This document shows positions 9,001 through 36,991 of a stretch of 50,082 bases of DNA, piece by piece. Position numbers and translations under genes: made by a program. The notes beneath the pieces are model-generated. The model worked only from the letters and a program-made list of their open reading frames with translations, was not told where the DNA came from and did no database searches. Position 1 is the stretch's first letter, and the number at the start of each line of letters is the position of its first letter. The stretch spans positions 1 through 50,082 of the IMG/VR virus record IMGVR_UViG_3300049448_000781. The stretch is one strand, 5' to 3'. The DNA is from a virus.

Positions 9001-9570
9001 GTCGAACCGGTTGATCTTGAAATTGGTGCCTGCGTCAAAGCCAGTCTCTTGCTCGGTGCCGCCGAACTCTACTGACCAGCGCGATTTGCCGTAACGCTGC
9101 GACTCAAAGTAGCCCGCAGCGGTGCCCGCTAGATCAGTGTTCCATTTGACGCCGGGCCAGCTTGGCCCGGTGGCGTGGACATAGAAGTTGGCATCAGACG
9201 CGCTCTGGATGGTCAGTGGTCCGGAGAGCGTGCCCCCGGTGAGAGGCAACACGCCGAGCCACGACTGGGTGCTGCCCTGGCGGCCGTAGATCAGCCCGTC
9301 GGTGGGTGCCTCGGGGAAAGGTGCCCCGACCGCCTTACTGCTGTCGTAGAGCAGTTTGCGGCCGGTAGCGTCCATGCTGGTCGGCACGCCCGCCCAGATT
9401 TTGACCGGGTCCGCCAGTTCCAGCCCGAGTTCGCCCACCAACAGCGTGTTGGCCGGTGGCGCGCTGCCAGAGTTCACCGTGTAGAGGTGCTGCACGGTCT
9501 CCCAGCGCGCGCCCGCGCGCGGGGCGGCTTCGTCGTCAGGTGGCGGCGGCGGGTAGTTTACCCCGTCCAT
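1..9570 (-). CDS. Giant modular tail fibre / receptor-binding protein, partial (runs off left edge)
   Basis: The frame is open from ATG at 9570 to base 1 with no stop, so at least 3190 residues are encoded and the C-terminus is missing. The protein is built from about 20 modules, each marked by a motif of the form LPLTGGTLSGPL (first near residue 105, last near the left edge), usually preceded by a linker such as EAATKHYVD and spaced roughly 100-300 residues apart. Other tail-fibre signatures are a VTSFNTRTGDVTLTLGDVTG segment near residues 2255-2275, several W-x-ETG-x-DAGT-x-F-x-I-x-RF segments, and a pyocin-knob-like stretch near residues 1670-1760. Such proteins project from the virion and bind the host surface. 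It overlaps the upstream DUF4054 gene by 13 bases, so the two are probably co-transcribed. The fibre assignment is firm; receptor and C-terminal domain cannot be judged. Confidence 0.9.
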   Translation of the reverse strand, partial: MDGVNYPPPPPDDEAAPRAGARWETVQHLYTVNSGSAPPANTLLVGELGLELADPVKIWAGVPTSMDATGRKLLYDSSKAVGAPFPEAPTDGLIYGRQGSTQSWLGVLPLTGGTLSGPLTIQSASDANFYVHATGPSWPGVKWNTDLAGTAAGYFESQRYGKSRWSVEFGGTEQETGFDAGTNFKINRFDDNGNVLFPSPFAITRATGYVHFGSLVFLATDPNTDLEAATKHYVDQQSPANKYLLLTGGTINPGPLNIESNYQTPALNLTGLTGIGSYWPIITLNNQTATGAVGILQSQRNGARRWAITLGDGFTPEVLGTSVGTDFIVSRYDDFGALLGNVLTIARQTGATQLAGNLNVLGPVTLSAGDPPVGADLQAATKHYVDIMSPVGKYLLLTGGTLTGELIIDTTRAMPGGNDWAGMSLDLYLAATHSPYGSALGFGGGGMAPGIVYGLQNFFGTFYIAVMPVPTDMSGAVGETDLFGIDINGAYTYVPAQFQGLGLSFHAFYDGLIDGTLNMGGPIVLNASPPQHDLEAANKRYVDDQVGGYLKLTGGNLTGLLTINPTGFPFTGYQPGDKSLFTQVWTTGTGSTTFGTFLVSAGGGDPSLIGVAATGSMSSPVQVLYTQSLLQLTGRGFDGAAWSGDQAAIELKAQEQWNATSHGTYLQFLTTPNGSVIMRPVMATTAAGNLLVGTGDPANDRITNALQVYGSTWLQGPLYLSHTATSLNEAVTLEYVTNAITAVQGAYLPLTGGVINGILEIHPNPTTAPPLFLGGNMNGTVPAYNFGMYLGFNYAGAGDADFINAWSNAVYSFNWYEMSGDRTTLNLLARLDAQGNFWPTGSVFINYVPTADNQAVNLGYVKTIDPTGKYLLLTGGQLGGGLSFGQRVAPGSPTPVPTDMSQHISLFDGWGGFTITPGSLNVIAAGAWALSFGLSGIWVKEGVGLYVSQTPSTDMEVVPLKWLRDNFVPITGGNYLPLTAGVNFPLTDALYIDSTITGLSAAIHLTTPGWPAVVWNTTTNIVAGPGNTAAGYFASQRQGRNRWSVEFGGTQQETGGDAGTDFLINRFHDDGNVNYPSPFGIRRMDGLVSILTPLILGHTTPTATNEAVTMGYVTSQTGNYLPLGGGIMQGGIVFADVSGQSPADVTHHITLHSGFGIGVTTPPASGSKRLNYVADVNSQHVFICGVDTAWIQSNGLYIASGADVILSRVPTNTSAAVPRSYVDTFLPLGGGQMEGGIVFNSNLYTGSASRTDTSKWITLFGGYGFSITSSSLNIVSNDQIWFSNSINGLNYAWFDGYGLHMVGNATVALSREPSDKMDAATMGYVDGVIVKAGGPFLPISAGFNNALTGELYLPHVVPTVDEMATPLFWVNGQIQSLQLQINQLEQNLVFVGQLDVPNDVVTFTPGFQISHPGYPSPGPLPAPDSLPKGYYVIVTNPGSPPPGSHIPPVYPPSTYTQHDWLISDGDVWVHLMLGLVYFTASQIAVLPQVYSGATTVQDTLQWLSDTRVKLAGDTMQGQLQVQWPTTNDSATPWSAVTWALTSYLPFSGGKMTGGISFDDSLATGSTTDTSKYITLHSAGYGFGVSAYRLNYTVSATDNHYFIVGGIDKLWVNASGVNTSCPVYLGHDPPTATNEAVTMRYVISRTPLGVDAPNDQNWWGRHGGQWGYVPGVQYIGAGAYDLNAVSPFGFMGILSITNQASAPNWPSDNPDQTASVLHTYNSNAGWQGQLMMGGRQRGFQPALWYRSVDDEYPGNWSPWNRIMASTGGTFTGPLTCEDSLTFWPTQSRNVPLVILGGASGATPTTTWGGALSFGGFHALTFINLYGAAGRSFEWFQMNSDASALTELMWLSPNGDLSVTGAVYLLKGDPTASTQAATAGYVDGVITRNGGPFLPLTGGTLSNTLTIACAWPTINLNASSTQQGRQIMGMTAGTPRWLIRLGDNDDEVGGNQGSSFRLWRYTDNAQQAYVALNISRADGAATFNGPVYLSHDPPTATNEAITLGYLNANTINIAGGDARWVNVHGDTMDGMLTVNSPFAFNGNSMTVPAWGSGFWGQWNLSGGGGEINLFNLGNGSDPGFDFRMVLGGGGSRRLLYINSVGTVYAQNSVMLPTPNPVQDYEAAHKFYVDGAVNRAGGPFFPLSGGSLQGPIYITTAQLTADALDLTRHILLYDGGYNNRFGFNVSYDSAAGTAYINYGVSAGNAKHQFWVNLLSIFTVDTLGIWMQRGTITLFRDPQLGPGGALEAATRQYVDARHNAGVTSFNTRTGDVTLTLGDVTGAGGAPNDSPFFTGNPRAPTPGTGDNSPSLATTAFVAGGFTPATYQNSGAFDFNTLPTATAFHQVGGSATPINGPYGGGNDWGTVLTTYRVNPSWGFQLFMADVGSSGVSNIWFRQQGGTGSWNGKPWVAVFTALGGQLQGPLYLWEDPVATNEAVTLSYLNTSLGRYLPLIGGELTGGLTITYIPTTTTAHLFLRPGWGQHLESKLRFGGTFDVNTDMGARLTASLRSGFRSNAWSYEYLDVWINNGNPNDASSDINQVQVASFNRFGITMPASMAITLSQDPTTGLQAATAQYVDGLILRNGGPWLPLRGGEITGQLQVDGVFVASANSAVINGLGTWGLAITNNLTQGQGEVDFVSLFYPYGGFRWYATQNGYVKVDLMALFPNGTLTLWGLGIQYNGIPHGGNTIGFSWYNNLINAYVDGGFVGYLPNTDYLAQYYLQLIGGTLSGPLKIQGGSAAWGGFNYGQQLLVLANSANHPGIGISDYRNAYWVGISNNSGSMYFSGMPALNDSTTAPRIWLSLGDGGAQFSGGVTSGTSTSGQTFIAVNAAATTGPGFQFQSAGYSRWLFALDHYAESGGTTGNGGAGLALYTYNNDGSFHGTAFQITRDTWQAYFSGSAYFTGPNPQINIDGPVSTWRTLQFFTSGAPRWNVQASADAESGSDTGSNFSITRVSDTGAYSSVLSINRASGLATFNYGLQVVPGLTASQITGTQSGGGNSSAIRVVAGSNATYEWNETGAAADNRKWDAIAGGGSLYFRTLNDTESAANAWLTVNRSGATASLITFTGTLGPLHLGNRIAPNNNGWDTSAHITLWDGGYGFSITGGTLNIVSGQTIQFWSGGSSLGYLTGGGGLVLTTGSTVLLGRDPTAAMEAVTLQYLQGYAGAGGPFMPLSGGAMTGRITFEGPSNSPGWL

Positions 9571-13116: not shown

Positions 13117-13677
13117 TTAGGCTTCCCGGCTCGGCTCGTTGTTACGTCGCCCGCGACGTTGTTCGGTCGCGACCGCCGCCTCTTTTGCCGCCTCGGCTGC
13201 CTCGGCCGCCGCCTGGGCCTTGGCTTCGGCTTCCTCTTTCGCCGCCTCGGCTTCCATAGCTTCCTTCTCGGCGGTGACGTTGGGTGGTTCCGAAAGTGCG
13301 GCAGGGTTGGTCCGCGCCCATTGCTGGAAAGCGGATGCCAATTCCGGTGTGAAGAAATTGGCATAGACCTTGCGGGTGGCGCCGTTATTGGAAGCGACAG
13401 CGGTGAAGAATGCCGCCACTGGGCCACGCCACATATCCGGCACGAACACCATGCCGCCGACATACTGACCCCAGAGTGGTGACAGTATCGGATCGGTGGC
13501 GGGTGCTGCGGCTGGCAGTGAACCGATGATCACCGGAACCACCGGTTGGGTATCGGTCCAGCCAAGGATGGAATTGTCGTGCAGGATGGCCCACACCTTG
13601 CCGGGTTCGCCAGCGACGTCGTCGTTGTATTCGACGGTGATCAGCACCGAGCCGTCGAGCGATGGGAATACCGGCAT
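13117..13677 (-). CDS. Hypothetical virion-module protein with Ala/Glu coiled coil
   Basis: A 186-residue protein. The N-terminal half (MPVFPSLDGSVLITVEYNDD, then KVWAILHDNSILGWTDTQP) looks folded, and PDMWRGPVAAFFTAVASNNG lies near the middle. The last 55 residues are almost pure Ala, Glu and Lys (EAEAAKEEAEAKAQAAAEA), ending in a basic QRRGRRN patch: a long charged helix. ATG at 13677 overlaps the upstream gene's stop (TGATG). Not recognised as a named family; the order scaffold - this gene - cement - capsid suggests a capsid assembly role. Confidence 0.65.
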   Translation of the reverse strand: MPVFPSLDGSVLITVEYNDDVAGEPGKVWAILHDNSILGWTDTQPVVPVIIGSLPAAAPATDPILSPLWGQYVGGMVFVPDMWRGPVAAFFTAVASNNGATRKVYANFFTPELASAFQQWARTNPAALSEPPNVTAEKEAMEAEAAKEEAEAKAQAAAEAAEAAKEAAVATEQRRGRRNNEPSREA

Positions 13678-14708
13678 CAGTGCACACTCCCCTGTGGGCC
13701 GAGACCGCCGTGCTTGGTCCAAAACTCGCGGTTGCGAGCGTTGATCTGGCGGATTTTCTCGGACTGGGCGTCGCGGAACGCGCGCGGATCACCGTCGGCG
13801 GAATAGGTCGCCTCGGATGGCCGCCCGGTGGCGTTGTTATGGGCGCGCACCTTGTCGGACGCGTCCATGAAGGCGTAGCGCACCGCATCACACGACATCG
13901 CCTTGATGCCGCCAGCGGTGAGGTAGCCCGCGATCACCGGCCCGGTGCGCTGATCGGTGATTGCCTTGGTGAGTGCGGCGCGCCGGATACCGCAGATCAT
14001 TTCGCTGGCAACCTTGGGTCCCTGCGCCGCGTCCATGGTTGGGAACTTGATGCCCGGCGCGAGGATTTCGGCCCGCGCGCGGGTTTCCTGAATCAAGTTC
14101 TTGAACGCGGTGGACAGCCTGCCGCGATAGGCACTGTCGCCCATCTTGGATGGCCCGGTTTTCAGCGCCGGGTCGGCTTCCATCAGTTCGGCTTCGACGC
14201 CGGGCGGGTCCTGCGCGACCTGGGCGCCCTCGGTGTGACCGGTGGGCAGATCGTCGTCGGTGTCCTTCTTGTCGTCGTCGTCGCCCTTGTCGTCATCACC
14301 CTTGTCGTCGTCGCCCTTATCGTCGTCGCCCTTCTTGGCGAGCCACGGCGGCAGGCCGTCGTCCTTGCCCTTGCCCGTGATGCTGTCCAGCACCCGGTCA
14401 AGCTTCTTGTCCATCGACGTGAAGCCCTTTTCCAGCCGCGCCACGCGCGCGCCCAGCTTGCCGCTATCACCAACCGGCGCCTTGTCCTTGTCGTCGTCGT
14501 CGCCTTCGTGGTGATTGTGGATATTGACGATGGTGTGCTTGTCGCCACCGCCCTCGTCGCCGTCAGGCTCGTCGTGGTCGTCCTGATCCTTGACCTTGGC
14601 CCTGGCAGCCAAGGCCGCCTCGGCGTCTTGAATGACCGCGTTGACCGAGGCTTTGTCGCGCGACATGAACCCGCGCAAAATGTAGTCGGCAATGCTCCGC
14701 TTACTCAT
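13677..14708 (-). CDS. Probable scaffolding protein with Asp-rich repeats
   Basis: A 343-residue, highly charged protein. Residues 10-60 form an Ala-rich helix; residues 45-75 are Asp/Gly/His-rich; a helical GARVARLEKGFTSMDKKLDRVLDS segment follows; then a run of KGDDD repeats at about residues 126-146 encoded by 15-base units. The C-terminal 150 residues look folded (YRGRLSTAFKNLIQETRARA, later DPRAFRDAQSEKIRQINARN). Scaffolds in DUF2213/DUF2184-type phages lie between protease and capsid genes and are acidic and helical, as here, so the role is inferred from place and composition. A strong AAAGGAGGG ribosome site precedes the ATG at 14708. Confidence 0.65.
   Translation of the reverse strand: MSKRSIADYILRGFMSRDKASVNAVIQDAEAALAARAKVKDQDDHDEPDGDEGGGDKHTIVNIHNHHEGDDDDKDKAPVGDSGKLGARVARLEKGFTSMDKKLDRVLDSITGKGKDDGLPPWLAKKGDDDKGDDDKGDDDKGDDDDKKDTDDDLPTGHTEGAQVAQDPPGVEAELMEADPALKTGPSKMGDSAYRGRLSTAFKNLIQETRARAEILAPGIKFPTMDAAQGPKVASEMICGIRRAALTKAITDQRTGPVIAGYLTAGGIKAMSCDAVRYAFMDASDKVRAHNNATGRPSEATYSADGDPRAFRDAQSEKIRQINARNREFWTKHGGLGPQGSVH
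14271..14333. repeat. In-frame 15-bp tandem repeat (KGDDD)
   Basis: Units close to CCCTTGTCGTCGTCG occur in tandem (14284, 14299, 14314) with degenerate ends on both sides. The 15-base period keeps the reading frame of the minus-strand scaffold gene and encodes KGDDD. Length variation between relatives by slippage would be expected. Confidence 0.85.
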
Positions 14709-14737: not shown

Positions 14738-14974
14738 TTAGATAGGCACGTCGGGGGGAGGGGGATCGACGCCGAGCAATTCCCAAAATTCGGTATCGAG
14801 TTCGTAGCCCTCATCAGTATCCAGCGCGGTCTCTAAAAGCTGGATCGCGTCCTGCCAGCTATCGAACGGCACTGCCATCATGTTGGGCGTGTCGCCGAAT
14901 CGCTCCTTGTAGGCTTGGATGATGACTTGGTCGGGGTCGCGCCCCTCATCTGGATCGACGTTGGTTGCTGACAT
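14738..14974 (-). CDS. Small acidic hypothetical protein
   Basis: A 78-residue acidic protein (net strongly negative) with MSATNVDPDEGRDPDQVIIQ at the start and a C-terminal EFWELLGVDPPPPDVPI. Its start codon overlaps the stop of the protease polyprotein by one base (TGATG), and it is followed by the scaffold candidate. I do not recognise a family. Tight coupling to the protease gene suggests a head-assembly or protease-regulating role, but nothing in the sequence proves it. Confidence 0.7.
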   Translation of the reverse strand: MSATNVDPDEGRDPDQVIIQAYKERFGDTPNMMAVPFDSWQDAIQLLETALDTDEGYELDTEFWELLGVDPPPPDVPI

Positions 14975-17900
14975 CAGGACGCTGCCTTTTGCATGTGTGG
15001 CGCCGCAACATTCACCAGTTTTGTTTCGTAACTGTCGGGGTTGGCTGGCCCGTCCTTCAAACCGGCACGCTCGGCGAGAATGTCGTCAAAATGCTGACAG
15101 CACTTTGGCGCGATCGTATGCAACATCTTGCGGTAAAGCGTGCCAAATTGATTGTTGGTCAGCGCGACATACTGCGCGAACATCTCGGCGGTCTTATAGG
15201 CTGGCATCCGTGTGTAATATGACTTGCCATGCCCGTTGCCGATCTGCTCATGGGTCATCGAGCCGATGAAATCCTGATATTCGGAATTGTGTCGACCGGG
15301 TTCCCGCCAGCCGTCGGTCAATGCCTGCATCGACTGGCCGCGTTCAACCTTTTCTGCGGCGGCAAGATTACCGTCGAGCAAATCCAAGATGGCGACTTTG
15401 GTTGTCAGCTTCGGCCCCGCAAAGGCGTTAATTTCAGCCACCGACAGCCCGCGTTTTTCTGCTTCAGCTTCCCAGTCATAGGCGTCTATCTTGGACGTGT
15501 AGCCGCCCCGATGCGCCTGGACTAATTTACGCGCCTCATCACCACGGTCCCGATCGGCACGGTATGACTGGTTGTTAAATTCGCGCTTGGGACCGAGACC
15601 CCAACCCGTTCCGTTCCAATCAATCGCATGGCCATATTCGTGTCGCCACGTGGACAGGCCGTCGTGCCCCATTTGAATATGGTGATCGCCCGGGTCGTAG
15701 TGGCAGCCCTTGTTCGCAGGCGAATCAACGCCGCCACCCTTGCCCGCCAGCGGCCGCATGGTCATCATCGCGGCGAGGATTTGCGGCGACGCGTGTTCCC
15801 ACGCCTTGGCATGGAATTCGTGTTCCTTGGCGCCCCAGTATTTGCCCCGTTCTTTGAGAACCTCGCTGATGTGCTGCGGCTGTTTCTTGACCGGTTCCGG
15901 CGTCGGTGGCGGGGGTGGCGGGGCTGGACTGGGTGTCGGTGCGGGGGTTGGCGCCGGGGCGGCTGTATCGGCCTTGCGCGGCTTGGCGCGATAGGCTGAG
16001 AAATCGGTCTGCCACGCCTCGGCCATGTAGTCGATCAGTTCGTTGGCGTAGACCGACACCTTGCCGTGCAGTTCGCGGCCCGCCATCGCCTGGATTTGCT
16101 TGACCACGTCGATCGGCGGCTCGTTGTTTTCCAGCGCCCGCATGACCAGCGCCTTCATCTGCCGCGCCGAGGCACGCTTCGCGACCCACGCCTCGCGCGC
16201 GTCGGGCGTCATCTGAGCGAAACCGGTGACACGCTCGCGCAACCGCTGCGCCGGGTCGGGCAGGGGTGGCGGCGCCGGTTCCGGCTGCGCCTCTCTTTTC
16301 TTGCGCAGTTCGGGGCGCGCGACCGCTGTGCCATACATGCCAGCGGTTAGCTCGTGCGCCGTCTCGACGTGCTTGATCAGTTCGTTGGCGTAGGCCGCGA
16401 CCGAGCCGTGCACCTCGGTGTGAGCGATGTCCTTCAGTCGCTGGATAACCGACTCGGGCGAATGTCCTTCGGTCAGCGCCTTGATGACGTGCGCCCGCAT
16501 CTGCTTCGCCGAGTTGCGGATGCCGACCCATTTCTTGGAAGGTTCCGGCACCAACGACGCCATGTGGCGCAGGTAGTCGCTCGGTTGGTGGATGACGGTG
16601 CCAGCGCTGGTCGAGTGGATAACCGTGGTCGAGCCGCCGCCCGAGGTGAACCGGCCGCCGCCCTCGGTGCCCTTTGCCTCGCGCGGGTGTTCCGCCTCAA
16701 CCCAGTCGTCCGCCCAGTCGATATCGAGCGTCGCGGGCCAGTCGATGTCGCGGGTGGCGGCACACCTGTCGCAGCCGCAACTATCGGCGAAACCAGGGGC
16801 GCGTCCCTCGATCTGCGCGGCCGCCTCGGCGGCCACCTCGTGACCGGTCGCAGCATGGATCAGCCCACGCCGCGCCTGCGCGATTTTAACGGGGCTGTCG
16901 GGCTGTGCGCGTGCGGCCCGGTAGTTTGCCTGCGCCCGCTCGTGGGCCGCCTCTGCGTGCGCCACATGGGCGGCAAACGGTGGGTCCTCGGGGTAGTCGA
17001 TATCGGCAGTCCAGTCGTCGGCAACCGGGCGGGCCTGCTTGGCGCGTTTCGCCAGTTCCCGTTTCAGCCGCGTCAGGTGCTTGGTGTCGCCGCGCTTGCT
17101 GGCGCCCGCGATCAGATCATGCGCCGCCTGTAGCCGCTCGGTGCTGTAGTTGGTTTCCATGTTATACATCGTTGCGATGTAGCGCGCGGCGTCGGGCGTC
17201 TGCGGCAGGGCTGGCCCCTCGGCATAGTTCAGCAATTCCTGCCAGACACCCTTTTGGGTTTTGGTCAGCCTATCGGCCCACTCGTGCCCAGGACCGACCG
17301 ACAGTTTGCCGTTGTGGAACGCGGTGAACGCCTCGGCGACAAATTCAAAGACGTTGTCCTGCCCATACGGCGACGTCTGGTCGTTGCGGATGCTCATGTT
17401 CTCGTTGGCGCCGACGCCAAGATGCTGCCTGACGATGTTCCACACCGTCACCGGATCAATCGCTTCCTCCAACGCGTGCGACAGCATGTGGCCAAATTCG
17501 TGGGTCAGGATGCCTTCGGGCGACGAATCGTTGACCAGCCCTTCCCATTCTTTGGCGTGCTTGGTCAGGAACTCCTCGTTCCACATCGCGGGCGATAGAT
17601 AGACGTGACCGCCACGATGCGAGCCAAGCGCGTCGCTCTGAATATCGTCGTGCCGCACCTCCACGCGGTGCGGGCCTTCGGTGCCGAACCGGCCGCCCCG
17701 TTTGGCGATCGGGTATTGCTCCGACAGCTTGTCGATGAACGCCTGCGCACCCGACAGGGTGTGGACCGGCGCCTCGCCGCCAGCGGCCGCGACCTCGCCG
17801 CCGCTTTCGCCGCCACCGGCTTCGGTGAACTTGCCGGTATCCGGCTCGCGCGGGTGTTCGCTCTCAACGAACGCCGCCGCGTCGCAGGCTTCACAGGTGT

Positions 17901-18444
17901 CGGTATAAAGCGCCGCGCCGCTGTCCATGATGGTGCAGCGGGCGCCGCAGCGCGCCACATCGACCAGCGCCAAATGGTTGCAGACGATATTTTTCTGCCG
18001 CCCCATGCCCGGCGCGATCTGCTCATAGTGCGCGTCGTAGCCCACCGACACCGCGCGTTTGCCTTGCTTGATCAGATGAATGCCCACGGGCGTGGTGAAC
18101 ATCAGGTCGGCCAGCAACAGGTCGTCCTCGGCCCCGGTGCCCTGGCGCGGGTTGATCATCAGACCGATCGTGAGGTTGCCCCAGTTTTCGGGGCGCACTT
18201 CCTCCATCGGGTGGTCGTTGACGATCGGCTTGCCCTGAAATGACCGGATGCTTTCGGGGCGGAACACTTCGGTCGGCTCGCGGTGCACCGTCACCAACCC
18301 GTCGCTGTTCGGTTCCAGCGGCAGTTCGCTGTGGTGGTAGATTTGCTGGCCGCAGCGCGCCACCGCGACGCCCTCGGCGATCAGGTAGCCCTCGGGGCTT
18401 AGCGCGGTGTGCTTGCCCAATTTGGTGACCGTATAGAACCGCAT
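14974..18444 (-). CDS. DUF2213 prohead protease fused to two zincin-like metalloprotease domains
   Basis: A 1156-residue polyprotein, several times longer than an ordinary DUF2213 protein. Residues 1-180 are DUF2213 (LSPEGYLIAEGVAVARCG, FQGKPIVNDHP, RAVSVGYDAHYE), a head maturation protease. Acidic linkers of the form EHPRE-x-GKFT-x-GGG follow near residues 197 and 585. The first zincin has HEFGH at 315-319 with AEAF (Glu371) as likely third zinc ligand. Residues 640-810 hold two copies of a helical unit (AKQMRAHVIKAL and ARQMKALVMRAL). A Pro-rich linker leads to the second zincin, HEYGH at 935-939 with AEMF (Glu1087). ATG at 18444 has a GGGAGGG ribosome site; the frame is open a further 32 codons. 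The zincins could be packaged effectors or act in maturation; their targets are unknown. Confidence 0.85.
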   Translation of the reverse strand: MRFYTVTKLGKHTALSPEGYLIAEGVAVARCGQQIYHHSELPLEPNSDGLVTVHREPTEVFRPESIRSFQGKPIVNDHPMEEVRPENWGNLTIGLMINPRQGTGAEDDLLLADLMFTTPVGIHLIKQGKRAVSVGYDAHYEQIAPGMGRQKNIVCNHLALVDVARCGARCTIMDSGAALYTDTCEACDAAAFVESEHPREPDTGKFTEAGGGESGGEVAAAGGEAPVHTLSGAQAFIDKLSEQYPIAKRGGRFGTEGPHRVEVRHDDIQSDALGSHRGGHVYLSPAMWNEEFLTKHAKEWEGLVNDSSPEGILTHEFGHMLSHALEEAIDPVTVWNIVRQHLGVGANENMSIRNDQTSPYGQDNVFEFVAEAFTAFHNGKLSVGPGHEWADRLTKTQKGVWQELLNYAEGPALPQTPDAARYIATMYNMETNYSTERLQAAHDLIAGASKRGDTKHLTRLKRELAKRAKQARPVADDWTADIDYPEDPPFAAHVAHAEAAHERAQANYRAARAQPDSPVKIAQARRGLIHAATGHEVAAEAAAQIEGRAPGFADSCGCDRCAATRDIDWPATLDIDWADDWVEAEHPREAKGTEGGGRFTSGGGSTTVIHSTSAGTVIHQPSDYLRHMASLVPEPSKKWVGIRNSAKQMRAHVIKALTEGHSPESVIQRLKDIAHTEVHGSVAAYANELIKHVETAHELTAGMYGTAVARPELRKKREAQPEPAPPPLPDPAQRLRERVTGFAQMTPDAREAWVAKRASARQMKALVMRALENNEPPIDVVKQIQAMAGRELHGKVSVYANELIDYMAEAWQTDFSAYRAKPRKADTAAPAPTPAPTPSPAPPPPPPTPEPVKKQPQHISEVLKERGKYWGAKEHEFHAKAWEHASPQILAAMMTMRPLAGKGGGVDSPANKGCHYDPGDHHIQMGHDGLSTWRHEYGHAIDWNGTGWGLGPKREFNNQSYRADRDRGDEARKLVQAHRGGYTSKIDAYDWEAEAEKRGLSVAEINAFAGPKLTTKVAILDLLDGNLAAAEKVERGQSMQALTDGWREPGRHNSEYQDFIGSMTHEQIGNGHGKSYYTRMPAYKTAEMFAQYVALTNNQFGTLYRKMLHTIAPKCCQHFDDILAERAGLKDGPANPDSYETKLVNVAAPHMQKAAS

Positions 18445-18597: not shown

Positions 18598-19623
18598 ATG
18601 ACCAACGACCACACCTTCGGTATCGAGATTGAGTGCTACTTGCCGGATGCCACCAACGCGACAGCGTGCGCGGCGGCGGTTACCGCCCGGCTCGGCTCAC
18701 CGTGCGTTGCCGAAGGCTACAACCACACCACGCGCAGCCACTGGAAGATCGTGACCGATGGCAGCCTGGGCGATTACACACGCGGCATCGAGATCGTCTC
18801 GCCGGTCCTGCAAGGGCAGGATGGCTTGGACGCGACACGCCGCGTGATGGAAGCGCTGACCGATTTCGGCTGCACGGTTTCCAAGAAGTGCGGTTTGCAT
18901 GTGCACGTTGGCGCAGGCGCCGCGCCGTCGCTGGATTTCTTCAAGAACCTGCAAAAGCTGTATGCCCATTTTGAGCCGGTGATCGATGGTTTCATGCCAG
19001 CCTCGCGGCGCAAGAGTGCCAACCCCTACTGCCGCTCGATCACTCATGTGGCGCTGCCCGCAGTCGATCGGGCGCCAGACCTCACTGGCATGATCCGGCT
19101 GATGACCGCGCATGGCGGCGAGGCGCGCTATCACAAGCTGAACCTCGACGCCTACCGCAAGCACCACACGGTCGAGTTCCGCCAGCACAGTGGCACGTTG
19201 GACGGCACCAAGGCGGTAAACTGGACCCTGTTCTGCCTGCGCATGGTGGACGCCGCCAAGGCCGGTGTGAGCATCGCCACCCAGGGCGTAGCGCAGACCA
19301 GCGCGGCGCGGCCGGGCAGCAAGGCATCCCTGGTCGGCGCCCTGTTGCAGCGCACTGAAGGCGTGACGCGCGCCGAAGCGATGGCCGCCACCGGCTGGCC
19401 CTCGATCAGCCTGCCGCAACAGGCGGCAGCGTGTGGCCTGGGCTTCACCACCCAGCGGACGGGGCGCGAGGTGCGCTACTTCGCGCAGGCGGCGGCGGCA
19501 ACCAGCACGGTGCCCGCCACGCTCGACGGGCTGTTTGATACGCTGGCCTGCCCGCCCGATGAGCGCGATTACTTCCGCGCCCGGACGGCGAACCTGTCCG
19601 GTCCGGTGCAGTGGGCGGCATGA
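18598..19623 (+). CDS. Amidoligase (Amidoligase_2 family) with C-terminal DUF3489-like domain
   Basis: A 341-residue protein. The catalytic part is a COOH-NH2 ligase fold: FGIEIECY at 7-14, GIEIVSPVL at 63-71, CGLHVHVG at 98-105, and VEFRQHSGTLD around 191-201, with the conserved Glu, His and Arg expected for ATP/Mg-dependent glutamine-synthetase-like ligases. These join an amino group to a carboxylate, typically adding or linking amino acids. Residues 242-297 (SLVGALLQRTEGVTRAEAMAATGW, then GREVRYF) look like the DUF3489 winged-helix domain, an unusual tail for this enzyme. A GAAAGGAGC ribosome site lies before the ATG. The cyclotransferase-like gene two genes downstream is a known companion of phage amidoligases, suggesting a peptide-modification pathway; the substrate is unknown. 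Confidence 0.85.
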   Translation: MTNDHTFGIEIECYLPDATNATACAAAVTARLGSPCVAEGYNHTTRSHWKIVTDGSLGDYTRGIEIVSPVLQGQDGLDATRRVMEALTDFGCTVSKKCGLHVHVGAGAAPSLDFFKNLQKLYAHFEPVIDGFMPASRRKSANPYCRSITHVALPAVDRAPDLTGMIRLMTAHGGEARYHKLNLDAYRKHHTVEFRQHSGTLDGTKAVNWTLFCLRMVDAAKAGVSIATQGVAQTSAARPGSKASLVGALLQRTEGVTRAEAMAATGWPSISLPQQAAACGLGFTTQRTGREVRYFAQAAAATSTVPATLDGLFDTLACPPDERDYFRARTANLSGPVQWAA

Positions 19624-19638
19624 TTGCCGCTAACTGAC

Positions 19639-19691
19639 TTGCTTACCCCCTCACTGGCCTATATATGATACGGAGTGACCCAAAATGGATA
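19639..19691 (+). promoter_or_regulatory. Promoter and operator of the XRE-type regulator
   Basis: TTGCTT (19639-19644), 17 bases, TATATG (19662-19667) form a promoter whose start site would fall near 19674. Immediately after it, GACCCAAAATGGATA (19677-19691) matches the dyad found in the spacers of other promoters of this phage and overlaps the ATG of the regulator at 19685. A protein bound here would block transcription start or elongation of its own gene. Confidence 0.6.
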
Positions 19692-19924
19692 CAATGTTGA
19701 AACCCCCGACGAAGCGCCCCAACAAGCTGAACGCGGCCACCCTGGTCGCATGGCGTGACCGCATGGGCTACTCGCAGCGCGATGCCTGCATCGCCTTGGG
19801 GTGTTCGCGGGGCGCGTGGTCAACCTGGGAGAACGGCACCCACCACGTGCCGCGCTACATCGGCCTTGCCTGTGCCGCGCTGGCGCTGGGCATGACCACT
19901 TACGGCGACGATAGGAGCGTGTGA
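19685..19924 (+). CDS. XRE-type helix-turn-helix regulator
   Basis: A 79-residue DNA-binding protein. LVAWRDRMGYSQRDACIALGCSRGAWSTWENG (about residues 21-52, quoted here in part: YSQRDACIALGC and AWSTWENG) is a classic Cro/C1-type helix-turn-helix. The short size and position with its own operator at the start codon suggest a repressor; it is the best candidate to bind the TAYCCA-N3-TGGRTA sites elsewhere in the window, which is an inference. It ends in a TGATG overlap with the next gene. Confidence 0.8.
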   Translation: MDTMLKPPTKRPNKLNAATLVAWRDRMGYSQRDACIALGCSRGAWSTWENGTHHVPRYIGLACAALALGMTTYGDDRSV

Positions 19925-20454
19925 TGACGGTGATGTTTGCCTACGGTTCAAACCTGAACCTTGACCAGATGGCGCGGCGCTGCCCCGACGCGGTGGCGCT
20001 GGGCAGGCTGCGGCTGGCTGATTGGCGGCTGGTGTTCCGGGGCGTCGCCGACTGCATCCCCGAGCCGGGCGCGGTCTGCTACGGCGGGGTCTGGCGCATC
20101 ACGCCGCGCTGCGAGGTGGCGCTGGATGCTTACGAAGGAATCGCATCGGGGCTGTATCGTAAAGAATACGTGCCGATCAAGCGCACCCGCGAGGGTGAAA
20201 CCGAGATGCTGATCTACATGATGAACAGCACCGGCATCATGCCGCCGAGCCAAGGCTACCTGAGAACCATCCGCGAGGGTTACCGCGACTTCCGCATGCC
20301 CAAGATTGCCCATAAGGGGCTGGACGAGGCGGTGCGGGACTCCTGGGACGATAAGGCGCCAACGCACATCGAGCGTCAGCGCCACCGCCGCAAGGGGCGG
20401 CCGCAGCTTGCGGCCTATCCCACGCCACCGGCCATGCCAGCGACCGGGCTATAA
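19924..20454 (+). CDS. Gamma-glutamylcyclotransferase-like (GGCT-fold) enzyme
   Basis: A 176-residue protein with the GGCT/AIG2-like signature: FAYGSNLNLDQM at residues 5-16 (the YGSN nucleotide/substrate loop), the central strand RLVFRGVADCIPEPG, and the catalytic acid context LDAYEGIASGLYRKEYVPI. GGCT enzymes release 5-oxoproline from gamma-glutamyl amines. Paired with the amidoligase two genes upstream, the likely theme is making and removing gamma-glutamyl or similar amide links on a peptide or small molecule. ATG at 19924 (TGATG coupling) is preferred over GTG at 19921. The last 25 residues are basic and Pro-rich. Confidence 0.8.
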   Translation: MTVMFAYGSNLNLDQMARRCPDAVALGRLRLADWRLVFRGVADCIPEPGAVCYGGVWRITPRCEVALDAYEGIASGLYRKEYVPIKRTREGETEMLIYMMNSTGIMPPSQGYLRTIREGYRDFRMPKIAHKGLDEAVRDSWDDKAPTHIERQRHRRKGRPQLAAYPTPPAMPATGL

Positions 20455-21992: not shown

Positions 21993-23636
21993 TCAAGCCC
22001 GTTCGCGGCGATACCAGTTGATCCCGCGCACCACGCTGTCGCTGTCGCCACCAAACTCGTCGCCACCGCGTTTCTCCCCTGGCGGCTTAGGCACGGGCGG
22101 CGCGCCCGCCCCTGGCATCCCTGGGGGCTTCATCATGCCCGGTGGCCCACCCATGCCCGGTGGCCCGCCCATGCCGCCCATGGCCGCCATATCGCCCGGG
22201 TCGGGCTGTTCCCAGGGCGGCGGGGCTTCTTCGCTGTCCTTGATGTCTTGGTCGGTGATGTTGGTGAACCGGCCGGTCATGATGGAACTCTGCTTGAGTT
22301 CCTTCAGCGCCATCGTGGTCGAGATGATCCCGGCGCCATGCGCCTGCACCACCGTCGCCACGTCGCGCTCCGCGAGTTCGGCTTTCTCGGTTTCGTCTAG
22401 TTGCCGCAGCGAGTTGAATGTGAACCCGAACGTATCGGGCGGCTCGGTGCCCAGCGCGCTGCGGTGCACCACCTCAAACACCCCGGTCAGCGGCCGTCGC
22501 AGCCGCGCTTCCTGGGCGGCGCGGATCATGTCGTAGTATTGCCGCAGATCGGACTCGCCACTGGAATTCAACCCGGCGGGCGACTGGCCGAATAGTCTAA
22601 CAAGGGGAATCCCTAACGCGCCGGAAATCTGCTGTCCCAGCGCCATGATGGTGTCCGATACGCCAGCGAACGAATATGACAGCGCCTCAAATTCGTCCTC
22701 GCTGTCGATCACCGTCATGCCGTTATTGCTTTGCAACCACCGCATGGCGTCCATCGACTGGTAGAAACCCTGCAACGGGTTGGGCATACCGGTCGGCGAC
22801 TGCGCCGGGTTGCCCGCCATCGCCGCGAGTTGTTTGTATCCCTTCACCTTGTAAACTCTGAGATAGGCGCGGAACAGCAGTTCGGCGGCACCCATCGTGC
22901 CAGAATCAAACGCCAACAGACGATCGTATAGACGCTCGATCACCGACATGCCCCAGCCGTTCTCGGCCAGCTTTTGCCTGAAAGGCAAAGTAACCCCATC
23001 CATCCTGACACAACGGGTGTAATGGATGGTCATCTTCGGCATGAACGGCGCGTTGGCGACCACTTGATAGAACACCGGCAGGCCATAGTCGGGACCGAAA
23101 TCCTGCACCAACACGTTGTAGCTGGGCTGGATCATCCACCGGTCGAGCGTCAGGAACCCCTTGAGTTGATCCTTTGCGATCGATTCTTTGACTAGCGGCG
23201 TCGCCATGTCCTGCCCGTCGATCAGCATGACCATCAGGCAGCCGCCATAGAGGCGCGACCATTTCACCGTCTCATTGAGCGATTGCCACAGGCACAGGTC
23301 GTTGATCACCTTGTGCAACTGCTCCACGTCGTCCGGGTCCATGTCGCTATTCAACGTGATGCCCGCGCGGGTCATATCATCCGCAACCACATCGACGGCG
23401 GCGCCGATAATCCACGACCCCCGATAGGCCCATTCCATCAGCAGGTTCAGCCGGGTGACCGGGTTGAACGTATGGGTCGAGTGGCTGAGTTGGTTTTGCT
23501 GGCCGAGGCCGATGCGAGCGACGAAATTAGAAATGTTGTCGGTGGTCAGATTGCCCAAATGGTCATTGGACGACCCCGCCTGCACGCGCACGCGCGGCTT
23601 GGCAGCCGGATCGCCGCCGTTGATATGATCAGACAT
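21993..23636 (-). CDS. Portal protein (DUF1073 / Phage_portal_3 family)
   Basis: A 547-residue protein, the usual size of a DUF1073 portal. Recognisable parts are NLLMEWAYRGSWIIGAAVDVVADDM (given in part: AYRGSWIIGAAVDVV), WSRLYGGCLMVMLIDGQD, and the clip/stem region GVSDTIMALGQQISGALGIP followed by VRLFGQSPAGLNSSGESDLR. The C-terminus has a Gly/Pro/Met repeat (GGPPGM units) followed by a charged tail. The portal forms the ring through which DNA enters. Current databases relate this family to the N-terminal part of some Acb1 anti-CBASS fusions; no Acb1 phosphoesterase domain is visible here. Start overlaps the terminase stop by one base. Confidence 0.88.
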   Translation of the reverse strand: MSDHINGGDPAAKPRVRVQAGSSNDHLGNLTTDNISNFVARIGLGQQNQLSHSTHTFNPVTRLNLLMEWAYRGSWIIGAAVDVVADDMTRAGITLNSDMDPDDVEQLHKVINDLCLWQSLNETVKWSRLYGGCLMVMLIDGQDMATPLVKESIAKDQLKGFLTLDRWMIQPSYNVLVQDFGPDYGLPVFYQVVANAPFMPKMTIHYTRCVRMDGVTLPFRQKLAENGWGMSVIERLYDRLLAFDSGTMGAAELLFRAYLRVYKVKGYKQLAAMAGNPAQSPTGMPNPLQGFYQSMDAMRWLQSNNGMTVIDSEDEFEALSYSFAGVSDTIMALGQQISGALGIPLVRLFGQSPAGLNSSGESDLRQYYDMIRAAQEARLRRPLTGVFEVVHRSALGTEPPDTFGFTFNSLRQLDETEKAELAERDVATVVQAHGAGIISTTMALKELKQSSIMTGRFTNITDQDIKDSEEAPPPWEQPDPGDMAAMGGMGGPPGMGGPPGMMKPPGMPGAGAPPVPKPPGEKRGGDEFGGDSDSVVRGINWYRRERA

Positions 23637-25015
23637 CAGTAGGCCATGCGCGACCAGACGCTGATATCGCCCTCGGCCACGAGGTTGAACGCGCGCGAGG
23701 TGGAGTCAACATCATCATCATGTGGCAACTCCGGAAAGCCTTCCAGCATCTGTAGCCAGCGCTCGTTCCACGCGCCGCGCTGCACCAACACGTTGCCCGC
23801 CTCGGCCTGCGCCGAGAACGGCGCGAAGCGGGTGATCTTGTCGCCGGTCTCGGGTGACCACTCGATCGCATAGCCCGCCAGCATCCGCACGAAGGCGGCA
23901 ATCTGCGCCTTGCCTGCTTGGCCCGGGTCCTGCGGGATGCCCACCTTGCAGCCGACGCCGTCCTGCGACGTCATGTTGGCGACCGCGCGTTCCACCTCGG
24001 CGGGGCTGCCCCGGAACCACGTGTGGTCCAGCACCACATAGCGCCCGTCGATGGTGCGGCCGATCTTGGTGGAACAGGTCCAGTCGGGGTCGTTCTCGGT
24101 GGTCTCCACCGTCGCCGCCAAATCCCAGCCGCGCCCGACCTCGGTGATCATCGGGCAAATATCCACGACTTGAATCCAGCGCCGATTGAAATAGAGGCCC
24201 GCCGACGGACGGATGTGCCAGTTGCCGTTGAGCAGCCGTTCGCGTTCCACCTGGGGCAGCATCATCAGGTTGCCGCGATAACCCGGGTCGTTGCGTTCCA
24301 GCGCCGGGTTGTCCGCCAGCTTGGCCGAGATGAAGGTCAGCGACTTGACCATCGCCTTGGTTAGCTTGGGGTGGTCGCGCAGCGCGGCGACCTTGCTGTC
24401 ATACCATTGCAGGGCGTCGTCGTGCCCGCGCACGAAATAGCGCACCACGCCCGAGCGCTCGGGGATCGGATAACCGGTGGCGGGATCGATCCACCATTCG
24501 ATCAGTTGCGCCACCCAGCTACCGGCGTCGGCGTTGCAGGACGCGCGTATATACGGACGTATTCTGGTCGGCGAACGGTTGCGCGACATCAGGTAGAAGA
24601 ATTGCTGCTTGGTGAACGTGGTCAGTTCGTCAAAACACAAACAGCCGATCTGGCTGCCATGCCAGTCCAGCACGGTGTTGTCGTATTCAAGATGCGACAG
24701 CTTGACCATGCCTTTGCCGGGCCAGCGCCACTCCATGCGGTGCGACACCGGGATGCCTCGGGCATGAAAGAACAGCTTTTCCGATTCCGACCACAGCCCA
24801 CCCGGCTTGCGCAGATCGGTGGTATTGCGACGGAACATGACCGAGTCAAAACTCTTAACCTGACTGGGATAGCGCATCGCCTCCAACAGCAGCGCCCAGC
24901 TTTTGCCCGATCCTGCGCTGCCGCCGAAGATCGCTATGTCGGCGTCGCTTTCGAGGAACATGCGCTGCGGCCCCTCTTGCGGGGCAATCGTCGTGCGCTC
25001 AAGCGTGGCACTCAT
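23636..25015 (-). CDS. terL: Terminase large subunit
   Basis: A 459-residue DNA-packaging motor. The Walker A loop is GGSAGSGKS (31-39), Walker B lies in IGCLCFDELTTF (about 120-131) and the coupling/sensor region includes ASCNADAGSWV. The C-terminal RNase-H-like nuclease begins at GRGWDLAAT, continues through DGRYVVLDHTWFRG, and has further acidic residues in GIPQDPGQAGKAQ and PHDDDVDSTSRAFN. ATG at 25015 overlaps the upstream stop by four bases; an in-frame ATG 16 codons further upstream lies inside the previous gene. It docks on the portal encoded directly downstream. Confidence 0.92.
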   Translation of the reverse strand: MSATLERTTIAPQEGPQRMFLESDADIAIFGGSAGSGKSWALLLEAMRYPSQVKSFDSVMFRRNTTDLRKPGGLWSESEKLFFHARGIPVSHRMEWRWPGKGMVKLSHLEYDNTVLDWHGSQIGCLCFDELTTFTKQQFFYLMSRNRSPTRIRPYIRASCNADAGSWVAQLIEWWIDPATGYPIPERSGVVRYFVRGHDDALQWYDSKVAALRDHPKLTKAMVKSLTFISAKLADNPALERNDPGYRGNLMMLPQVERERLLNGNWHIRPSAGLYFNRRWIQVVDICPMITEVGRGWDLAATVETTENDPDWTCSTKIGRTIDGRYVVLDHTWFRGSPAEVERAVANMTSQDGVGCKVGIPQDPGQAGKAQIAAFVRMLAGYAIEWSPETGDKITRFAPFSAQAEAGNVLVQRGAWNERWLQMLEGFPELPHDDDVDSTSRAFNLVAEGDISVWSRMAY

Positions 25016-25227
25016 GCGCGCGGTGTGCCATCGTCCAGTCGTGTGATGGCGACGTTGGCCCACATCGCAGCGGTGCGCAGGTGCCGCATCACATGATCCC
25101 GATCGAGACCGGGTGGCACATGCATCTCAACGAAGCTTGCGAACGTAGCGAATGCCTGCCGAAGATCGGCCATGTCGTCTAGCTGCGCGTCGGTCGGCTT
25201 CAAATATTCAAACGTGTTTCGGTGCAT
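25012..25227 (-). CDS. Acb2-like cyclic nucleotide sponge (anti-CBASS candidate)
   Basis: A 71-residue protein with the pattern of Acb2 (also known as Vs.4 in T4-like phages): TFEYLKPTDAQLDDMADLR at the start, a helical middle, VPPGLDRDHVMRHLRTA, and AAMWANVAITRLDDG at the end. The F-x-Y-x-x-P, P-G-x-D-R and MWAN-x-AI elements are those shared by Acb2 proteins, which form hexamers that soak up the cyclic dinucleotide and trinucleotide signals of CBASS immunity. It is embedded between terminase genes, coupled by TGATG upstream and ATGA downstream. Binding specificity cannot be read from the sequence, and a Tad1-like activity against Thoeris signals is possible. Confidence 0.75.
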   Translation of the reverse strand: MHRNTFEYLKPTDAQLDDMADLRQAFATFASFVEMHVPPGLDRDHVMRHLRTAAMWANVAITRLDDGTPRA

Positions 25228-25502
25228 CACCAGAACCTCTGGTCGGCTTCCATCTGGCGCAGCAACAGCCACAGCAGAATCTTCGCGGTGCCGTCGCCGC
25301 CCCATGACTTGTTGGCTACCAGCGACGCGCGTAGCGCCTCGGTGCTGCCTTCCCACTTGCCGTCAGCGAACAGCGTGATGGCGCAGGGCGGCTCGCCGAG
25401 CGTGATGGTGAACGGATACCACGGCGAGTCCTGTAGCCTGAACGTGCTGGTGACGGTTTCGCCGCTCGGGATCGGGACGAACTTGATCTCCTCATCGCTC
25501 AT
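25227..25502 (-). CDS. Hypothetical protein in the terminase operon
   Basis: A 91-residue protein, MSDEEIKFVPIPSGETVTST at the start, with LQDSPWYPFTITLGEPPCAI and a helical C-terminus TAKILLWLLLRQMEADQRFW. It overlaps the terminase small subunit gene by four bases and the Acb2-like gene by one, so all are surely co-translated. No family recognised. Its place directly upstream of an Acb2-like gene makes a counter-defence or packaging accessory role possible, but this is only context. Confidence 0.7.
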   Translation of the reverse strand: MSDEEIKFVPIPSGETVTSTFRLQDSPWYPFTITLGEPPCAITLFADGKWEGSTEALRASLVANKSWGGDGTAKILLWLLLRQMEADQRFW

Positions 25503-26026
25503 GGATCGGTGCCCGTCGCTGCGGGTGGCGCCTCGGTGGCATCGCCGTCGATGGTCGGTGGCGCGTCGTCCGCCTCGGGCTGGTCGCGGCCGTTGGGCGG
25601 CATGTAGAAATGCACCACATCGTCGTCGCGCGAGGTTTCCGGGTCCGCCCCCGGGGCTTCCTTCGGCACCTGCCACGACGGCCCGCCATGGGTCAGCAAC
25701 CAGAACCGCGCCGCCGCCATGTTGCCCGCCAGCGCTTCCTTCACCACCGTGTAGCCGACGCGGGCAACAATCTGGGCGCGGCCGGTTTTGATTTCTTTCT
25801 TGAAATACTTCACCAGCGTCGAGTGGTGGATATTCAGCGCCTGCGCGATCACTGCCTGAGTGTCGTTATTGGCGGCCAGCACCATCACGGTATGGCGCTG
25901 CTCGTTGGTCGGCACAAAGGCGGGGATACGCCCATTCTCATCACGCTCCGCGCGTGGCTGCCCACGGCTGATCCGCTGGCCGGGATTGAGTTCCACGACC
26001 ACGTCGTCAGGCTGGTTGTCCTCCAT
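25499..26026 (-). CDS. Terminase small subunit-like DNA-binding protein
   Basis: A 175-residue protein with a helix-turn-helix at about residues 40-75 (TNEQRHTVMVLAANNDTQAV, then IAQALNIHHSTLVKYFKKEI), a helical segment VVKEALAGNMAAARFWLLTHG typical of TerS-like proteins, and an acidic Pro-rich tail. Small terminase subunits recognise viral DNA and regulate the motor. Position three genes ahead of terL supports this. Its start overlaps the end of the ParB-methyltransferase gene by 20 bases. The exact family is not certain; a generic HTH regulator is the alternative. Confidence 0.7.
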   Translation of the reverse strand: MEDNQPDDVVVELNPGQRISRGQPRAERDENGRIPAFVPTNEQRHTVMVLAANNDTQAVIAQALNIHHSTLVKYFKKEIKTGRAQIVARVGYTVVKEALAGNMAAARFWLLTHGGPSWQVPKEAPGADPETSRDDDVVHFYMPPNGRDQPEADDAPPTIDGDATEAPPAATGTDP

Positions 26027-27227
26027 TCGCCACCTCCCGGGTTGCGGTCTGGCCGGTGAATTGCTCCCAGCGCTGCACGCAAACGTCAGTATAGCCCGGG
26101 GTGATTTCCATGCAGTAGGCCACCCGCCCGGTCTGCTCGGCGGCGATCAGCGTGCCGCCCGATCCGGCAAACGGGTCGGCCACGGTGCGCGCCAGATCGG
26201 TCACGTCGATGATGGTGGTCAGCAGATCGACCGGTTTCTGCACCGCGTGCAACAGGTTGCCGGTGCGCTTGGCCTGGATCACGTTGCCCTGGGCTTTCTG
26301 CGGCGAGAACGGCGAACGCACGCGCAGGCCGCACATGATCAGTTCGTGCTGCATCCGCCAGCCGACGCCCATGCCCGGCGTGCCCTTGTCCCACACGATC
26401 ATATTGCGCACGCCGTAGCCCGAGGATTCGACCACGTCGAACAGGTTGATCCACATCCGCCAGTCGGTGAAAATGTAGACGACGCCCGTGCCGAACCCCG
26501 AGACCACGGCTTTCATCAGCGCCATGTAGCCGCGCGTCGACAGCGTATCGTTGGCCACCATTTCGTCGCCGCGCGTCCCCACGCTGCCCGAGGCGCGGCC
26601 CGCTTCCTGAAAGCCGCCCGAGCAATACGGCGGATCGGTCAACAGCACGTCGATCGCTTCGCCCCGGGTCAGCTTGGTGATATCGGCGGGCGAAGTGGCA
26701 TCGCCGCACATCACCCTGTGGCGGCCGCACAGCCAGACATCGCCCACCTGGGATATCGGCACCGGAGGCACCTCGGGCACCGCCTCCGCGTCGCCTGTGC
26801 CCTGCGACGGGCCTAGTCCCAGGATATCGTCAACCTCGTCCATGTCGAAGCCGGTGAGCGTCAGGTCCCAGCCCGCCATTTGCAGGCCGCCCAGTTCCAT
26901 TTTCAGGGTGTCGTCGTTCCACGACGAATTCAGCGCCAGCTTGTTGTCGGCGATCACATAGGCCCGCTTCTGTTCGTCGGTCCAGTTGCGCGCCACCATG
27001 ACCGGCACCTGGGGCAGTCGCAGCTTGCGCGCCGCCTCGACGCGGGCGTGGCCCGCGATCAGCATCCCGCTTTCGTCAACCAAGACCGGCATGGTCCAGC
27101 CCCACTGCTCGATCGAGCGGGCAATCTGTTTGATCTGCGCTGACGAATGCGACCGCGCATTCTTGCTGTAGGCAAGCAGCGTTTCGGTGTCGCGCCGCTC
27201 AACCGTGTCGGCTGGCCAATCTGGCAT
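26007..27227 (-). CDS. ParB-domain / N6-adenine (or N4-cytosine) DNA methyltransferase fusion
   Basis: A 406-residue fusion. Residues 1-100 form a ParB/Srx-like domain with the nucleotide-binding motif GHARVEAARKL (59-69) and LLAYSKNARSHS. The methyltransferase follows: catalytic DPPY at 198-201, and the SAM-binding DPFAGSGGT at 351-359, giving the beta-class order (catalytic motif first). Such proteins are common at the head of phage packaging operons and probably methylate phage DNA to evade restriction or mark it for packaging. ATG at 27227 has GAGGAAA ten bases upstream and faces the divergent early promoter at 27274. Confidence 0.88.
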   Translation of the reverse strand: MPDWPADTVERRDTETLLAYSKNARSHSSAQIKQIARSIEQWGWTMPVLVDESGMLIAGHARVEAARKLRLPQVPVMVARNWTDEQKRAYVIADNKLALNSSWNDDTLKMELGGLQMAGWDLTLTGFDMDEVDDILGLGPSQGTGDAEAVPEVPPVPISQVGDVWLCGRHRVMCGDATSPADITKLTRGEAIDVLLTDPPYCSGGFQEAGRASGSVGTRGDEMVANDTLSTRGYMALMKAVVSGFGTGVVYIFTDWRMWINLFDVVESSGYGVRNMIVWDKGTPGMGVGWRMQHELIMCGLRVRSPFSPQKAQGNVIQAKRTGNLLHAVQKPVDLLTTIIDVTDLARTVADPFAGSGGTLIAAEQTGRVAYCMEITPGYTDVCVQRWEQFTGQTATREVANGGQPA

Positions 27228-35771: not shown

Positions 35772-36515
35772 TCAGCCGCTGTTGCGCTTGGCGTCCCGGC
35801 GCCGCGCCTTGTCCAGTTCGCTGACCCTGGCTTCCGCCGTCCGCACCGAGGGGCCGAACAGGTCAGCCACGCGACGCTTGGCTTTCGCGTCGTCACGCGC
35901 GGCTTTCTTGGCTTTGCGCTTGGCTTTCTTGTCCAGCGCCAGTCGCAACTGCTCAATCTCGGCTTGCAACGAAGTGATGCGCTTGTTGGTTTCGTTGGCC
36001 AGATGCGGGAACAACGTGCGCGACCACTCCTGCATGATGCGGTGAATGTCGCCGATCATGCCCGCCGCGACCGGGTCGGTGTGGGTGCCAAGCTGGCTCA
36101 GTTCCTGATGCATCCCGGTGACCGCGCGATGCAATATGGCCATCGCATTGGTGGCGCCTTCCGACGCGCGGATGGTCTCGCTACGCTGTTGCGCAATGCC
36201 ATCGCGCAATGCGACGAAGCCGGTGTCCAGCGCGTCAATGGTCCTGGCCAATTGGTTGACGCCCTCTGGCACCACGTGCAGCCGCAGCGACGCGACCTCG
36301 CTGCGCAGGGCCGCCACCTCGGCTTGCAGGTCCCGCACCGGCCCGCCGGTCGGCGCCAGCGGCTGCCACGGCGATTGCTGCCAGCCTTTGGCCGGTGGCG
36401 GCTCGGGTTCAATCGGCAGGAACGGTTTGGCGTCGGCGGGCGCCTCGACCGGCAGCACCGTCGGCTTGGCAATTGCCGGGCGGCCACGGCGTTTGCCGGT
36501 GGGGCGACGGGTCAT
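35772..36515 (-). CDS. Long coiled-coil hypothetical protein
   Basis: A 247-residue protein with a basic N-terminus (MTRRPTGKRRGRPAI), a Pro-rich linker, then almost continuous coiled coil: VRDLQAEVAALRSEVASLRL, SEGATNAMAILHRAVTGMHQ, ITSLQAEIEQLRLALDKKAK, ending in a Lys/Arg-rich RRDAKRNSG. The RPTGKRRGRP stretch resembles an AT-hook. It is coupled by ATGA to the alpha-CTD-like protein upstream, which also has a coiled coil, so the two may form a complex. No named family. Confidence 0.7.
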   Translation of the reverse strand: MTRRPTGKRRGRPAIAKPTVLPVEAPADAKPFLPIEPEPPPAKGWQQSPWQPLAPTGGPVRDLQAEVAALRSEVASLRLHVVPEGVNQLARTIDALDTGFVALRDGIAQQRSETIRASEGATNAMAILHRAVTGMHQELSQLGTHTDPVAAGMIGDIHRIMQEWSRTLFPHLANETNKRITSLQAEIEQLRLALDKKAKRKAKKAARDDAKAKRRVADLFGPSVRTAEARVSELDKARRRDAKRNSG

Positions 36516-36991
36516 TGGGTCATCCTCATGCGGTCGGCGGGGAACTCTGCCAGTTGGGCGCTTACCATGCGTTCCAGCGCGGCCACACATTCCAGCATCT
36601 TACTGTAGTATGACAGCAACTGTGCAATTTCATGCTCTGCGGCGGCCATGCGTTCCTCAAGCTGGGCAACGTGCGCGTGCAGTTGGTCCAGCCGGTCCGC
36701 CACGCTGGTGACGCGCAGCGCCATATGGTCCGACGGTGGTCGCTGCTCACCCCGCAGCGCCAACCCGTAGTCGGTCAACATCGCGCGCAGTTCGCCCAGC
36801 GACTTGTTGCCGAATTGCGGGATTCTTTTAAGCTGATTCGCGTCGCAGGCGATCACCTCGCGCAGCGTTTTGAAGTTGCCGAAATGCGCCATGGTCAGGG
36901 TATTTTGCAGTCGCACACTGGGCATCACGTCCAGCGTGTCGAAGAACTGGTCCAGCGGCCAGTCCAACAGGTTGGCCGGGCGATCGGTCAC
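36512..36991 (-). CDS. RNA polymerase alpha C-terminal domain-like protein with coiled coil
   Basis: A 159-residue protein. Residues 23-79 (SVRLQNTLTMAHFGNFKTLR, EVIACDANQLKRIPQFGNKS, LGELRAMLTDYGLAL) match the alpha-CTD fold: 'SVR-x-x-N-x-L', a helix, then 'I-x-x-F-G-x-K-S-L-x-E-L' where the helix-hairpin-helix loop contacts DNA. Residues 85-145 form a coiled coil. In RNA polymerase this domain binds UP elements and activators; a free phage copy may redirect host transcription or simply bind DNA. The start overlaps the upstream gene (ATGA). Confidence 0.75.
   Translation of the reverse strand: MTDRPANLLDWPLDQFFDTLDVMPSVRLQNTLTMAHFGNFKTLREVIACDANQLKRIPQFGNKSLGELRAMLTDYGLALRGEQRPPSDHMALRVTSVADRLDQLHAHVAQLEERMAAAEHEIAQLLSYYSKMLECVAALERMVSAQLAEFPADRMRMTQ

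Follow-up and report, generated by a model that had tools for sequence, protein, structure and literature searches.

The window analysed here is the whole of viral record IMGVR_UViG_3300049448_000781 from IMG/VR, 50,082 bases in length, and the genes of interest lie in a minus-strand run of packaging and head genes. The run is headed by a DNA methylase gene (26007..27227; PF01555, E 1.5e-13) with a ParB-like N-terminus (PF02195 at E 1.8e-4, under the cut-off). It continues with a terminase small subunit-like gene (25499..26026, 175 aa; phrog_309 at E 1e-5 and phrog_12540 at E 6e-13), an accessory ORF of 91 residues, ORF91 (25227..25502, no Pfam or PHROG match), the acb2-like gene (25012..25227, 71 aa; PF24729 and phrog_1454 matches), the terminase large subunit gene (23636..25015, 459 aa; phrog_979 at E 1.2e-147, PF03237 at E 1.1e-21, and PF17289), the portal protein gene (21993..23636; PF06381 at E 2.4e-101, phrog_146) and a minor head protein gene. 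The call for the small subunit is weaker than that for the large one, as Pfam shows only a sub-threshold HTH. PHROG and Pfam matches thus agree with the original prediction that the acb2-like gene sits between terminase genes: the large subunit gene lies on its 3' side, and the small subunit-like gene lies upstream of it beyond ORF91.

The acb2-like frame runs for 71 codons from ATG to TGA, from 25227 to 25012 on the minus strand, which the original prediction did not specify, and the plus strand over the same interval is interrupted by a stop. Short overlaps between start and stop codons are the usual mark of coupled translation. Such overlaps join the small subunit-like gene to ORF91 (ATGA on the coding strand), ORF91 to acb2 (TGATG, the ORF91 stop overlapping the acb2 start) and acb2 to the large subunit gene (ATGA, the large-subunit ATG overlapping the acb2 stop), and they argue for the coupling into the packaging operon that had been proposed. 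A promoter scan finds 2 sites versus 1.3 expected. Third-position G+C is 0.667 for acb2 versus 0.79-0.87 for its neighbours, which, over the 72 codons of acb2, hints at a later arrival of this gene.

Several other genes in the window deserve mention. The head-maturation protease is apparently split in two: a 1156-aa protein (14974-18444, minus strand) matches phrog_1961 positions 1-176 (DUF2213) and leaves about 980 residues unmatched, and a 343-aa protein (13677-14708, minus strand) matches positions 202-416 of the same family. Also in the head region, one short plus-strand run (18598-20454) carries genes for an amidoligase (phrog_2443) and a gamma-glutamyl cyclotransferase-like protein (PF06094/PF13772). 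A 159-aa protein (36512-36991, minus strand) matches the RNA polymerase alpha C-terminal domain PF03118 (26.2 bits versus 23.8) and is possibly a transcription modifier. An open frame of 3190 residues (1-9570, minus strand), cut by the record end, has no Pfam match at E 0.01.

Identification of the 71-aa protein as Acb2-like is borne out by the family HMM search that had been called for. The curated model PF24729 (Acb2/Tad1 hairpin) scores 41.9 bits against it (cut-off 27, E 1.2e-10) over model positions 2-58 of 58, and phrog_1454 matches at E 5.2e-11. Across the entire record PF24729 finds this single place (E 9.2e-12), and it gives zero matches in 14 control genomes. Over its full length this model also matches two tested members, T4 Vs.4 (71.4 bits) and PaMx33 Acb2 (ORF24; 66.1 bits). 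Identity to these tested members is 16-18%. A search of PDB chains with the window protein as a single sequence finds nothing; with a 51-row profile it finds unrelated chains (best E 0.032) and no Acb2, and hhalign of the profile against the single tested proteins is weak, with a probability of 3% for PaMx33 and 53% for Vs.4. The motifs on which the original prediction leaned are all present (F6-E-Y8-L-K-P11, P39-G-L-D-R43 and M55WANVAI61), but they make up a subfamily signature rather than that of tested Acb2: in six aligned rows that include T4 Vs.4 and PaMx33 Acb2, the residues common to all are Y8, M55 and A60 only. The 71-aa protein is, as judged by these profile matches, a divergent new member of the known Acb2 family. 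The gene evolves under purifying selection, with pN/pS of 0.15 against sister contigs (protein 96% identical) and 0.32 against a 70% relative, and a range of 0.15-0.34 against L003, L007 and L009.

The predicted structure (mean pLDDT 91.8) is a two-helix hairpin, with helices at 13-36 and 41-62; the residues before the first of these give only a short helix at 7-9, and the model has zero strands of three or more residues. Foldseek and VIA-align both return Vs.4 with cGAMP as the top PDB match, with Acb2 at ranks 4 and 5. These fold searches add little because many helical hairpins reach the same scores: Foldseek E values are 1.4 for Vs.4 and 2.7 for Acb2, with common helical hairpins scoring as well, and the VIA Z values for these two, 6.4-7.1, are also reached by helical hairpins that are unrelated. 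Vs.4 is described as holding cGAMP by hydrogen bonds and salt bridges from Y8, H11, K23 and R79, and as stacking Y8 and F82 on it; S74N disturbs binding, and A73 and A77 are the hexamer alanines (available text of PMC10097602). Aligned to Vs.4, the window protein keeps Y8 and T12 and has R23 for K23. The hexamer alanines are kept as A53 and A57, and L29 becomes F29; R79 and F82 are replaced by V59 and T62, and H11 and S74 by P11 and A54. Conservation in the 51-row alignment reaches 90% or more at each of Y8, T12 and R23 and is complete for MWANVAITR, the latter being partly built in by the use of WANVAITR as a search word. Because the family model matches and Y8 is kept, with R23 in place of K23, while four other contacts are changed, we assign the protein to the family and expect it to act as a sponge, and we name no ligand. 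The Acb2 family is widened by this divergent branch, whose ligand face differs from those of tested Acb2 proteins and whose specificity may therefore differ.

A rebuilt face could instead mean a sponge of the same fold that serves another signal, such as gcADPR, used by Thoeris, or some unlisted cyclic nucleotide. The name of PF24729 also covers the Tad1 hairpin, the Vs.4 contacts R79 and F82 are missing, and three residues of the helix concerned, N58, T62 and R63, do not vary across the 51 rows. However, 71 residues are too few to include the N-terminal beta-sheet of Tad1 as described in the available text of PMC12043709, the model has no strand as long as three residues, and the invariance of the helix owes something to the search word. 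We regard a different signal as unlikely, though it is the best placed of the alternatives.

The settings in which relatives of the gene occur were surveyed by a scan of IMG/VR, which gave 149 pattern matches, of which 134 were confirmed and 80 loci kept; grouping these loci by flanking DNA gave 59 groups. (In 10 of 81 sequences acb2 escaped the gene caller, and its position was then taken from the profile match; the labels of neighbours derive solely from PHROG matches to the representative of each cluster.) Within three genes of acb2, 13 of the 59 groups show packaging or head genes (two of these, L056 and L081, resting on a weak terminase match at E 5e-5), 16 show replication genes and 30 are unlabelled. 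Later matches shift L010 and L018 to packaging, giving 15 packaging/head, 16 replication and 28 unlabelled groups. On this count the wider family acts like a mobile accessory gene. Among sequenced phages, the window protein as query recovers 28 records, all at less than 60% identity and mainly from Mycobacterium and Gordonia phages. A scan of 84,980 species genomes recovers a single relative, in a Rhizobiales isolate, with terminase and portal genes downstream; this sole host genome with a relative shows no match to a SMODS cyclase. The large terminase of the window is nearest to those of Rhizobium phages, at 55%. Nearly all that is known of the divergent Acb2 branch comes from metagenomic virus contigs.

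In a quick Acb2 tree (71 columns, several long branches), the window, L002 and L006 fall in a clade of nine rows (SH-aLRT 98), with L053 and L097 outside it. Head or packaging genes are found near all nine rows, a pattern spotted after the tree was built and hence no test. Three rows adjoin the large terminase gene (window, L002, L006), five are near the major head protein gene (L010, L019, L044, L018 and L021, with L044 tested through L048 and L021 inferred from L018 by shared flanks), and in L009 the portal gene lies some 1.8 kb downstream of acb2. The family is known; what is new, in a modest way, is that it turns up repeatedly amid late genes for packaging and the head. The PMC open-licence literature, so far as its text could be searched, yielded no description of Acb2 or another anti-CBASS gene set among terminase, late or packaging genes.

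Close relatives of the window's large terminase differ in what lies at the junction. In L119 and L120, whose large terminases are 80-81% identical to that of the window and whose portals are 85% and 79% identical, acb2 is absent from the stretch examined and the small and large subunit genes overlap directly. In L006-L008 (large terminase 75%) acb2 occupies the same junction, 71% identical and without ORF91. L053, a partial record (large terminase 76%), has an acb2 54% identical to that of the window. In L097 (large terminase 74%) the small and large subunit genes overlap and acb2 (51%) follows the large subunit gene, joined to it by TGATG. The acb2 genes of L053 (5388-5603) and L097 (5377-5592), which lie on opposite sides of closely related large terminase genes, resemble acb2 genes found in other settings (70% and 69%) more than they do that of the window. 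PF24729 is found in five of 27 whole records (L096, L007, L053, L097 and the Rhizobiales genome) and not in the other 22, many of which are short fragments. This presence and absence among close large-terminase relatives is the ground on which gain and loss of acb2 at the terminase junction seems frequent. By identity to the acb2 products of L053 and L097, the window protein ranks 67 and 70 of 82, which suggests that acb2 arrived independently in those two. Independent acquisition was also put to the tree, which does not establish it: when the five terminase-linked rows are constrained to group together, an AU test gives p 0.141 and does not reject the constraint, on an alignment of 71 columns with several long branches.

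The same comparisons bear on whether the protein is a packaging or head-assembly accessory that reuses the Acb2 fold structurally and has no role in counter-defence. The close coupling of acb2 with the large terminase gene in the window, L006-L008, L053 and L097, together with the head or packaging genes beside every row of the subclade, would fit such a role. Against it, the junction does without the gene in the relatives with large terminases 80-81% identical, 16 of the 59 groups of wider relatives have it beside replication genes, and the family members of tested function are sponges (available text of PMC10097602); we consider it improbable, more so than a different signal. That the frame arose by chance, being short and in DNA of 64% G+C where chance frames abound, is refuted by the curated profile match, the 134 related stretches in viral contigs and the pN/pS values.

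ORF91 had been put forward as a partner for acb2. The ORF is there, yet among its relatives (eight loci, six of them on contigs also found through acb2) adjacency to acb2 is confined to L002-L005, four contigs that are nearly identical. In L006 and L008 it is about 4 kb from acb2 on the other strand, and the L086 record, which has an ORF91 relative, gives no match to PF24729. A partner role was rejected on these grounds, and ORF91 (mean pLDDT of its predicted structure 66.2), judging from its distribution, is most plausibly an accessory gene in its own right.

We favour the reading that the gene encodes an Acb2-type sponge for cyclic oligonucleotides, made with the packaging proteins, to which we assign a probability of roughly 0.8. 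The small helical hairpin would oligomerise and hold cyclic oligonucleotides, which would keep the effectors of CBASS, or of a related system that works through signals, switched off. The acb2 gene, an accessory gene inserted precisely between the two terminase genes, would be translated by coupling to them, and the level of the sponge would rise with the late structural proteins, at a time when cyclic-nucleotide alarms can fire. Late expression of the window gene is itself expected from its position alone. The original prediction considered such timing late for a counter-defence factor, but it involves no contradiction, because relatives of PaMx33 Acb2 follow capsid or portal genes in structural operons and late firing of the cyclase has been reported. 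In the available text of PMC11153139, two phages activate the cyclase only at a late stage of infection, and capsid proteins are cited as implicated triggers; in that of PMC12043709, Acb2 acts in lysogen induction and not in its maintenance. A broader proposal, which we offer as speculative, is that one lineage of Acb2 sponges has its home in late modules for the head and packaging and has more than once, perhaps in independent events, come to lie before or after the large terminase gene. Coupled translation would then tie its dose to that of the late structural proteins, matching defences triggered late or by capsid products. The placement of acb2 offers a simple test of whether phages time the sponge to the defence trigger or to early infection.

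Among known systems, Tad1 shares the PF24729 hairpin by family name and differs by its N-terminal beta-sheet (as described in the available text of PMC12043709), which the model of the window protein lacks. T4 Vs.4 is alike in matching the whole of PF24729, in its two-helix hairpin, and in Y8, T12, the MWA core and the hexamer alanines; it differs in its 16% identity and in R79 and F82, which are replaced in the window protein, and its gene lies near regB among small genes whereas the window acb2 lies in a packaging operon. Acb2 of PaMx33/PaMx41 (ORF24) is alike in its PF24729 score of 66.1 bits and its equivalent of Y8, and differs in being 18% identical and 93 aa long versus 71; its gene ends a strand of replication genes convergent with the structural genes, so a place among structural genes does set the window gene apart from these best-studied cases. 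(A PaMx33-Acb2 relative in L094, at 9001-9288, or MN536027.1 9042-9329, was labelled "NAD/FAD-utilizing enzyme" by its depositors, a label that is probably wrong.) The PaMx33 Acb2 query finds relatives in vB_Pae-SS2019XII (Pseudomonas, Beetrevirus) and Vibrio phage 252E42.2, at 54% and 51% identity, which the window protein as query against sequenced phages does not recover. In these two the Acb2 homologue is part of a structural operon, lying two genes past the capsid gene or immediately behind the portal gene, and not, as in the window, between the terminase genes.
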